Source: Rhodanobacter sp. C06 | GTDB taxonomy: Bacteria > Pseudomonadota > Gammaproteobacteria > Xanthomonadales > Rhodanobacteraceae | Assembly (NCBI RefSeq): GCF_002001105.1 | Contig: NZ_MUNP01000024.1 | Span: 1 to 44,505, forward strand | Length of the DNA: 44,505 nucleotides | Direction of reading: 5' to 3' | Shown here: one piece after another, positions 42,271 to 44,218 of the stretch | How the letters are laid out: every line of letters starts with the position of its first letter | How positions within the stretch are numbered: position 1 is the stretch's first letter | Position numbers and translations under genes: made by a program | Notes under the pieces: model-generated | The model's database searches: none | What the model saw: only the letters and a program-made list of their open reading frames with translations | What the model was told of the DNA's origin: nothing

Positions 42271-42966
42271 ATGAGTCCGGACGCCCTGCTCGATCCTGCC
42301 CGTCTCGAACGCCCGGACACCTTGGTGCGGCAGGCACCGTTCCCGTTCATGGTCGCCCACGGCCAGTTGCCGGACGAGGCGCGCGGCGACCTGGACCGCG
42401 ACTTCCCGCGTTACCCCAGCGCCGGCTTCTTCCCCTGGGACCCGGCCGATTGCGGCCCCTCGGTGAATGCACTGGTGGAACAACTCACCGCGCCGGCCTT
42501 CGCCGGGCTGATCGGCCAGCGGCTGGGCATCGCCGACCTCGGCCAGTACCCCACCCTGGTGACGCTGTGCCGCCTGCTGAACAAGCGCCACGGCACCATC
42601 CACACCGACAGCAAGTCCAAGGTGGCCACCGCCCTGCTCTACCTCAACCCGCAATGGCCCGACACCAGCGACGGCTGCCTGCGTTTCCTCGACAAGATCG
42701 ACGACATCGACGCCACCGTGACGCCGGAGCTGCCGCCGCTGTACGGCGAGTTCGCGGTGTTCAAGCGCTGCGACAACTCCTTCCACGGCCACCTGCCCTA
42801 CGAAGGTGAGCGCCGGGTGATCCAGGTGGCTTGGCTCACCAGCGAGGAGGAGAAGCTGCGCAAGACCAAACGCGGCAAGTTCTCCCGCCTGTTCAAGAAG
42901 CTGTTCGGCAAGCTGGACACGCGCTACGGCGCCGATCGCGATCGCAACGCCGCACATCCGGACTGA
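42271..42966 (+). CDS. 2OG-Fe(II) oxygenase family protein
   Basis: This 231-aa protein has the double-stranded beta-helix signature of prolyl-4-hydroxylase-like 2OG-Fe(II) dioxygenases. His and Asp ligands are in TIHTDSKSKVATALLYLN (HTD, about residues 110-113). The distal His is probably in NSFHGHLPYEGERRVIQVAWL (about 169-189), where the Arg should bind 2-oxoglutarate. The C-terminus carries a basic helix (KLRKTKRGKFSRLFKKLFGK), possibly a membrane- or nucleic-acid-contacting tail. The substrate is unknown. It diverges from carA and its stop is 1 bp from the end of the convergent cation exchanger gene. Confidence 0.85.
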   Translation: MSPDALLDPARLERPDTLVRQAPFPFMVAHGQLPDEARGDLDRDFPRYPSAGFFPWDPADCGPSVNALVEQLTAPAFAGLIGQRLGIADLGQYPTLVTLCRLLNKRHGTIHTDSKSKVATALLYLNPQWPDTSDGCLRFLDKIDDIDATVTPELPPLYGEFAVFKRCDNSFHGHLPYEGERRVIQVAWLTSEEEKLRKTKRGKFSRLFKKLFGKLDTRYGADRDRNAAHPD

Positions 42967-42967
42967 A

Positions 42968-43972
42968 CTAGCGGATGAAGTGCCAGCCGACGTAGGCGGC
43001 AAACACGCCGTACAGCAGACCCACCGGCAACAGCCAGCGCGCATCCACCCGGCCGCGGCGGAACAGCCACCACAGGTAGACGATGGCGGCCGCTGTGAGC
43101 GCGCCGGACACGATCAGCGGCGTGTCGAACAACCACGGCGTGGCGAAGATCGCCAGTGCGCTGGGAATCGTCGCCTGGATCATCATCGCGCCGGAGATGT
43201 TGGCCAGCGCCAGCCGCTCCTTGCCCTGACGCACCCAGATCAGCGCATTCAGCGTCTCCGGCAGTTCGGTCGCCACCGGACTCAGCACCAGCGCCACCAG
43301 GTGCGGCGGCAGGGCAAGCGCCAAGCCGATTGCCTCCAGTTGCCCCACGAACACCCGCGAGGCCACGGCGATCACCACCAGTGCTGCCACAGTCTGCGCC
43401 GCCACCCAGCGCATCGCCGGCTCGGCTTGGTGCGGGCGCAGCTTCAGCGGCTCCAGCGACTCCTCCGCGGGTGCAGTGTCGACGCTGCGCATCTCGCGCC
43501 ACACATACAGCGCGTAGGCCAGCAGGAACAGCACACCCAGCCACGGCTTGAGCGCGAACGCCACCAGCCCCAGGCCCACCTTCACCGCGAAGATCGCCAG
43601 AAACCACGCCTGGTCGCGGGCCAGCCGTTGATGGTCGACCCGCACCTGCATGTCTGCGCGCCGCAAGCGGGCGCGGTTGCGCCACAGCGCGATGCCCACC
43701 ACCGCATAGGCGATCGTGGCCAGCACCAGCGGGCCACCCATCGCCGCGCCCACGCCGATGTCGCGCGCCTCGGGCGTCTTGCCGAAGATCACCGCCACGA
43801 AGGTCACCGCGCTTTCCGGCAGCGCCGTACCGAATGCAGCGAGCACGGTGCCGGTGGCGGTGGCACCCAGGCTGAGCTTGCGGCCCAGCCATTCGATGCC
43901 GTTGACGAAGTATTCGCAGGCGAGATAGATCGCGCCGGCCGAGACGAGGAACAGGCAGAGGGTGAGCAGCAT
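42968..43972 (-). CDS. CaCA-family cation exchanger under a Mn riboswitch (YrbG-like)
   Basis: This 334-aa inner-membrane cation/proton (or cation/Na+) exchanger has about ten helices. The two alpha repeats are present: GATATGTVLAAFGTALPESAVTFVA (residues about 36-60) and LVALVLSPVATELPETLNALIW (about 222-243). Each has a PE pair, the Glu being the cation ligand. A cytoplasmic basic/charged loop lies between the halves. The second repeat continues GKERLALANISGAMMIQATIPSAL. By family it could move Ca2+; the yybP-ykoY riboswitch in its leader argues for Mn2+ efflux. ATG at 43972 gives the expected first helix. No Shine-Dalgarno is visible, and a strong hairpin ends 10 nt upstream. Confidence 0.9.
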   Translation of the reverse strand: MLLTLCLFLVSAGAIYLACEYFVNGIEWLGRKLSLGATATGTVLAAFGTALPESAVTFVAVIFGKTPEARDIGVGAAMGGPLVLATIAYAVVGIALWRNRARLRRADMQVRVDHQRLARDQAWFLAIFAVKVGLGLVAFALKPWLGVLFLLAYALYVWREMRSVDTAPAEESLEPLKLRPHQAEPAMRWVAAQTVAALVVIAVASRVFVGQLEAIGLALALPPHLVALVLSPVATELPETLNALIWVRQGKERLALANISGAMMIQATIPSALAIFATPWLFDTPLIVSGALTAAAIVYLWWLFRRGRVDARWLLPVGLLYGVFAAYVGWHFIR

Positions 43973-43982
43973 GGGGGCACGG

Positions 43983-44032
43983 GGCCGGGCGAACGGATGG
44001 ACCGATGGCACAGCGACACCGTTCGCCCGGCC
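43983..44032 (-). promoter_or_regulatory. 14-bp-stem hairpin before the exchanger start (expression-platform candidate)
   Basis: Arms 44019-44032 and 43983-43996 are exact inverted repeats (GGCCGGGCGAACGG and its complement) around a 22-nt loop. The 3' arm ends 10 nt before the ATG at 43972. No T tract follows. It probably controls ribosome access or transcription elongation in response to the riboswitch. Confidence 0.7.
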
Positions 44033-44044
44033 GGGTGAACACGT

Positions 44045-44183
44045 CGCTGGCCAAAGGTCTCGCCGGGCAAGACACCACCGGGTGGCGATGTCTGCTGTCC
44101 GCACCATGGCGCCGGGAAACGGCGACCAAGTCTGTTGATGCGAACGCCTCGGGGGACGAGGCTGGCTACTCCCCAATGACAGG
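44045..44183 (-). promoter_or_regulatory. yybP-ykoY manganese riboswitch
   Basis: Read on the minus strand, the conserved blocks occur in the right order: GGGGAGTAGCC (44174-44164), ATCAACAGACTT about 30 nt later (44138-44127), and GGCGAGACCTTTGG (44064-44051). GGGGAGUAGC, the 'UCAACA-ACU' loop and GAGACCUUUG are hallmarks of this Mn2+-sensing class, known from E. coli alx and mntP. In that class the first and middle blocks form the docked loops that hold Mn2+. The middle loop is AUCAACAGACUU, close to GUCAACAUACU. The P1 closing pairs look weaker than in E. coli. A promoter lies immediately upstream and a strong hairpin downstream. Confidence 0.88.
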
Positions 44184-44189
44184 CTGGCG

Positions 44190-44218
44190 ATGGTAGCGGC
44201 CGGCCACAACGCGGGCAA
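44190..44218 (-). promoter_or_regulatory. Promoter of the riboswitch-exchanger transcript
   Basis: On the minus strand TTGCCC (44218-44213), a 17-bp spacer and TACCAT (44195-44190). The predicted start is near 44183, a few nucleotides before the riboswitch GGGGAGTAGCC block. Confidence 0.65.

Follow-up and report, generated by a model that had tools for sequence, protein, structure and literature searches.

What does an exchanger of the CaCA superfamily carry when its gene stands directly behind a manganese riboswitch? The question is raised by a 44,505-nucleotide stretch of DNA from Rhodanobacter sp. C06 (the window in what follows), for which a first-pass annotation had proposed a yybP-ykoY riboswitch in front of the gene of a "YrbG/CaCA exchanger" and had predicted that the protein exports Mn2+. 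Comparison with related bacteria suggests that the exchanger pumps out excess manganese, and we regard it as very probable that the locus as a whole is best explained by an Mn2+-responsive leader RNA controlling a CaCA-fold antiporter that exports Mn2+.

A riboswitch and its leader RNA

The riboswitch in front of the CaCA exchanger gene is confirmed. When the whole window was searched with cmscan, the yybP-ykoY model RF00080 gave the sole match above a gathering score, at 52.0 bits (gathering score 45 bits; E 4.4e-11), so that the covariance-model check proposed in the first-pass annotation bears out the class it had assigned. Across the whole genome, the site in the window is the one RF00080 match at E <= 0.001. 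Both the conserved loop blocks and the aptamer helices of the class are present there (sequence; RNAalifold). The three blocks lie on the minus strand where they had been placed (Table 1), and the third falls immediately 3' of the Rfam match and contributes the 3' strand of P1. The 17-bp-spaced promoter described earlier is likewise found directly upstream, though its boxes match the consensus at only 8 of 12 positions and a promoter scan at a threshold of 9 of 12 found none; similar boxes can be seen by eye at the same position in several relatives. Transcription would be expected to start at about 44183, with the mRNA beginning at or just before element A. As for the surroundings, an open frame upstream of the leader that runs to the contig end (44169-44504, minus strand) has no Pfam match, and behind the exchanger lies a convergent gene (42271-42966, plus strand) with a 2OG-Fe(II) oxygenase domain.

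Table 1. Features of the riboswitch-exchanger locus, in window coordinates
Feature	Position	Strand	Basis or remark
Promoter-like boxes TTGCCC (44218-44213) and TACCAT (44195-44190), 17 nt apart	44190..44218	-	sequence
yybP-ykoY (Mn2+) riboswitch aptamer	44066..44186	-	RF00080; helices with both-side changes in 47 leaders
Element A, 5' strand of P1, GUCAUUGG	44173..44180	-	A/B helix, RNAalifold
Conserved block 1, GGGGAGTAGCC	44174-44164	-	sequence
Conserved block 2, ATCAACAGACTT	44139-44128	-	sequence
Conserved block 3, GGCGAGACCTTTGG	44064-44051	-	sequence
Element B, 3' strand of P1, CCUUUGGC	44050..44057	-	can pair with A or D
C'/C hairpin, proposed ligand-free fold	44013..44047	-	covariation, fold calculations
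Element C, GGCCGGGCGAACGG	44019..44032	-	can pair with C' or E
Element D, anti-P1, GCCAUCGG	44002..44009	-	competes with A for B; fold calculations
Element E, CCGUUCGCCCGGCC	43983..43996	-	can pair with C; ends 10 nt before start codon
CaCA-superfamily exchanger, 334 aa + stop, predicted Mn2+ exporter	42968..43972	-	PF01699, AlphaFold model, switch association

Two folds are open to the leader, each supported by covariation and each excluding the other; one of them is compatible with the ligand-bound aptamer. In an alignment of 47 leaders, 96.4% of cells are paired in the A/B helix and 86.8% in the B/D helix, and all or nearly all pairs of the C'/C helices show changes on both sides or on one side. 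The C/E helix has both-side changes in 6 of 11 aligned pairs. In the window it is 14 bp long, a length reached by none of 60 dinucleotide shuffles; of 49 leaders, 46 have a C/E helix of at least 9 bp and 41 have one that none of 60 shuffles equalled (mean z 5.0), while three leaders (L164, L169 and L290) failed the shuffle test. When each complete structure is scored over the 47 leaders, 95.1% of cells are paired for A/B+C/E, with both-side changes in 7 pairs, and 88.8% for B/D+C'/C, with such changes in 13; slid controls of both reach 30-54% paired cells, a comparison biased against the slid versions since both tested structures were drawn from one row (L127) that is itself among the aligned leaders. 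Left unaided, RNAalifold returned the aptamer helices and P1 from the 47 leaders, with the C-E pairing shifted by four columns (six pairs), and did not return the B/D helix.

Fold calculations were also made for individual leaders. Unforced lowest-energy folds of 19 leaders contain B/D in 12 and C/E in 5, and a clean split into two states is thus not seen in every leader; once P1 is imposed, 17 of the 19 form C/E. By ensemble energy, 35 of 39 leaders prefer B/D to the P1 state (mean -7.7 kcal/mol across the 39), which means that ligand binding would need to overcome a preference for B/D.

These folds suggest a mechanism. Without Mn2+, B would pair with D and enclose the C'/C hairpin; in many relatives a short U stretch follows directly on the resulting long hairpin, which probably halts transcription. 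Mn2+ on the aptamer would close P1 (A/B) and free D, after which C could pair with E. Because C/E is incompatible with B/D, the exchanger gene would be expressed at high Mn2+. U-rich tails after the leader hairpin are visible in a number of relatives; in the window itself no intrinsic terminator passes the scan, and D is followed by only a poor U stretch. Exposure of the start codon was considered as another way of switching and is unsupported: forming P1 leaves the stretch ahead of the start more accessible in just 13 of 39 leaders. The A-E platform is probably not confined to exchanger genes, since some UPF0016 and MntP leaders of the same family resemble the exchanger leader by eye.

A CaCA fold with an altered ion site

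The exchanger contains two Na_Ca_ex stretches matched by PF01699 (100.4 bits against a cut-off of 24.9; E 1.2e-28). Its AlphaFold model (mean pLDDT 84.6) finds NCX_Mj chains as its best structural matches (3v5u, TM 0.72/0.80), followed by CAX, VCX1, NCLX and YfkE. Its nearest named relatives are mostly from Rhodanobacter. The CaCA half of the name given in the first-pass annotation thus holds, with both domain and NCX-like fold behind it; the YrbG half does not, the protein scoring 38.1 bits against a cut-off of 432 with the YrbG model (NF008005 / PRK10734.1). Identity with the calcium/sodium antiporters of TIGR00367 was also rejected (73.2 bits against 179.65).

The ion site was compared at positions that we take to have their familiar roles in NCX_Mj, using computed alignment columns. 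Both catalytic glutamates are kept (E53 and E239). Four site serines of NCX_Mj are replaced: S51 by A50, S77 by G80, S210 by E236 and S236 by A262. Two further positions, N81 and D240, adjoin a two-residue gap and correspond to T86 and T268 as aligned or, with the gap shifted, to L84 and Q266; neither placement restores the original residue. Across the exchanger clade the motif SGAMMIQAT is almost invariant. As most of the compared Na+-site residues are replaced, the counter-ion is probably H+ rather than Na+, and we infer that Na+ coupling has been lost. The exchanger would then remove Mn2+, probably in exchange for H+. Most of the same changes occur in more distant relatives (~30% identity) without switch linkage and are therefore, by themselves, no proof of selectivity for Mn.

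Linkage, exporter replacement and rival readings

The association between switch and exchanger was surveyed in 147 genomes, the set for the Rhodanobacteraceae family of the window, by comparing RF00080 sites with exchanger homologues. At least one RF00080 match was found in 136 of the 147 genomes (145 listed sites altogether) and an exchanger homologue in 77. Among close homologues (at least 57% identity), 77 of 78 start 2-119 nt behind an RF00080 site. The single unlinked one (G017, locus L154) has no RF00080 match at E <= 0.01, and a paralogue at 33% identity (G107) is not switch-linked. The remaining 68 of the 145 sites precede UPF0016 (56), MntP (7) or TerC (3) genes, apart from one with no recognised gene and one that was not fetched, these last two scoring 23.8 bits; the UPF0016 calls were made by motif with PF01169 placements, six of them verified by Pfam, and one TerC call was verified.

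Different exporter families stand behind the same switch, and they tend to replace one another. By genome (n = 147), 70 have only the exchanger, 67 only UPF0016 or MntP, 7 both and 3 neither; more finely, 61 have UPF0016 only, 6 MntP only, 4 the exchanger with UPF0016 and 3 the exchanger with MntP, counts from which weak PF01169 hits in two genomes (G054 and G069, the latter barely above the cut-off) were left out. A Fisher test on such per-genome counts ignores relatedness, and contrasts within a genus accordingly weigh more. Four genera contain both kinds of exporter: six exchanger-only and four MntP-only genomes in g19, one MntP-only genome among exchanger carriers in g6, seven UPF0016-only, one exchanger-only and two with both in g24, and nine UPF0016-only and one exchanger-only in g26.

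The unit also occurs beyond the family. The three-block pattern was found in 76 of 80 named homologous loci by a test that did not fix its position (it is absent from L182, L250, L251 and L258). For 20 of the 80, cmscan placed a switch ahead of the exchanger gene in 17, including loci from Chromobacterium (L257) and Acinetobacter (L259), and the pattern test agreed for all 20. In a plasmid collection, 11 records held exchanger relatives and 9 regions were opened: a switch precedes the exchanger in Massilia (L290, 101 bits), Azospirillum (L292), Novosphingobium (L293 and L294) and Aeromonas (L297), and in a second Massilia region (L291) an IS256 transposase gene (L291:912-2501) lies between switch and exchanger. 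The opened regions from Legionella (L295) and Enterobacter (L298, 30% identity) had no RF00080 match, and that from Streptomyces (L296) had one of just 23.4 bits. In the family to which a MAG titled Burkholderiaceae belongs, the exchanger was found in 4 of 250 genomes, with a switch 8-106 nt ahead of it in 3, two of the three scoring 34-35 bits and thus under the Rfam cut-off; among the best 30 switch loci of that family, the 27 that could be classified all precede UPF0016 and 3 were unclassified. Sampling 274 genomes of the class added 26 further carriers of remote exchanger relatives, none beside a listed switch, the switch listing there having used stricter filters by which weak matches can be lost. 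Viral contigs yielded one relative at 30% identity. In a quick tree of 74 rows, a single branch (SH-aLRT 100) of 46 rows holds all 39 labelled as linked and 7 unlinked ones, the Streptomyces row being labelled as lacking a switch despite its 23.4 bits and the second Massilia row as having one despite the intervening IS gene.

The two Massilia regions come from two plasmids of one strain from mine tailing; on one (L291) the transposase gene intervenes, and on the other (L290) the riboswitch is directly before the exchanger. The Aeromonas caviae record (L297) is labelled a plasmid and, at 4.9 Mb, is chromosome-like by size. Some 80 nt ahead of the exchanger (at 1501), the leader in a Nitrosomonadales MAG (L258) seemingly keeps elements B to E with no recognisable aptamer. 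No riboswitch was found before the stop-free exchanger frames of L182 and L154, which could reflect either leader deletions or, in the MAG L182, assembly faults. Acinetobacter seifertii (L303) and Chromobacterium (L304) have a second Mn riboswitch, before UPF0016 (by Pfam in L303, by eye in L304).

Three other readings of the locus can be weighed against these data. In the first, the protein is a broad exporter of divalent metals (Mn, Co, Ni) belonging to metal-resistance islands, with Mn2+ merely the inducer. The neighbourhoods of some copies point this way: the Massilia plasmid copies (L290 and L291) adjoin dmeF and a metal-sensitive repressor, the Azospirillum copy (L292) is near dmeF, a Co/Ni exporter gene, and an Acinetobacter copy (L301) adjoins a CDF-like frame identified by eye. 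However, metal-rich sites could select for co-localisation with dmeF anyway, and the near-complete linkage of close homologues in the family genomes is to a Mn switch, which makes this reading unlikely. In the second, the protein is mainly a Ca2+ antiporter (or one for Ca2+ and Mn2+) whose synthesis follows Mn2+ since Ca2+ is thrown out of balance under Mn stress, and Mn2+ export is secondary. The superfamily annotation and fold would fit this, as would the two retained glutamates, and some Mn exporters do handle both ions: a review footnote gives MgtA as exporting Ca2+ and Mn2+ (PMC9936198). Yet the exchanger substitutes for UPF0016 or MntP in most genomes (70 against 67 of 147), and BP3410 of Bordetella pertussis argues the same way: calcium had no effect on its expression (reported as data not shown), and about five times more Mn was present in cells lacking a functional copy (PMC8546581). 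We consider a primarily Ca2+-directed function quite improbable. The third, that the riboswitch is a relic or its adjacency one ancestor's accident, is already disfavoured and very improbable, since the aptamer and platform helices are maintained by both-side changes and the switch-exchanger unit occurs in several families and classes, even though most counted cases come from one family and a few leaders have been lost (L154, L182 and L250).

Manganese export thus remains the preferred reading, and the substrate predicted by the first-pass annotation draws support from the linkage, the replacement of one exporter by another, the recurrence in other families and classes and the Bordetella precedent, all of which would fit an exporter of Mn2+. 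A wider proposal can be made: that a distinct, mobile CaCA clade has had its Na+ site dismantled (Glu for Ser210, Gln or Thr for Asp240 depending on gap placement, with two adjacent Met residues nearby) and is dedicated to Mn2+/H+ export. It would make up a sixth family of widespread Mn exporters, taking the place of UPF0016, MntP and TerC behind one and the same kind of two-state leader. We lean only slightly towards this wider proposal.

Precedents and known systems

The prediction of Mn2+ export already has a published precedent. Capek et al. (2021) described BP3410 of B. pertussis as a calcium:cation antiporter that is under a yybP-ykoY switch, is induced by Mn and exports Mn2+, and they inferred that transcription stops inside its switch without Mn (PMC8546581). 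The B/D+C'/C structure proposed above as the stopping fold fits that inference. Most B. pertussis strains carry a duplication that disrupts BP3410, and in B. parapertussis isolates the gene is disrupted by a frameshift (PMC8546581; PMC9936198). A table in a 2023 review classes BP3410 under YRBG, and its row for Ca2+:cation exchangers lists Bordetella proteins only (PMC9936198). RegPrecise places yrbG under the switch in Vibrio vulnificus, as cited in a 2026 paper (PMC13274385), and a screen reported a UPF0016 member under a yybP-ykoY switch in 328 of the 333 strains that have one (PMC7380456). The lists of Mn exporters given in 2022 (PMC9334652) and 2026 (PMC13274385) name MntP, CDF, P-type ATPase, UPF0016 and TerC. 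A literature search drawing mostly on freely available papers found none on the exchanger clade in Rhodanobacter or Dyella; for Rhodanobacter with manganese and riboswitch no paper was found, and the titles and abstract openings of most of the Dyella papers found offered nothing on point. What is new here is the breadth of the association, the swapping of exporters, the anatomy of the leader and the altered ion site. If the clade exports Mn2+, many "sodium:calcium antiporter" proteins of soil bacteria, including those on mine-tailing plasmids, would be Mn-resistance genes, and the natural exporter swaps would allow direct complementation tests in laboratory strains.

The closest known system is that of B. 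pertussis BP3410 and B. parapertussis BPP3560, YRBG-type Ca2+:cation exchangers and, like the protein in the window, members of the CaCA group. BP3410 stands behind a yybP-ykoY switch, and the CaCA gene in the window is likewise directly behind one; the organisms differ, and the likeness is drawn from published description rather than from sequence. E. coli YrbG shares the superfamily with the exchanger, but the best local alignment between them covers only 87 residues at 30% identity and the exchanger fails the YrbG model cut-off. NCX_Mj (MJ0091) and the CAX/YfkE exchangers share its fold and two catalytic glutamates, whereas identity in fold alignments is 12-19% and several positions of the Na+/Ca2+ site are replaced. 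Finally, the yybP-ykoY switches before mntP, alx/TerC, UPF0016/MneA and P-type ATPase genes are of the same RNA class and also precede Mn export genes, but the genes they control come from other transporter superfamilies.
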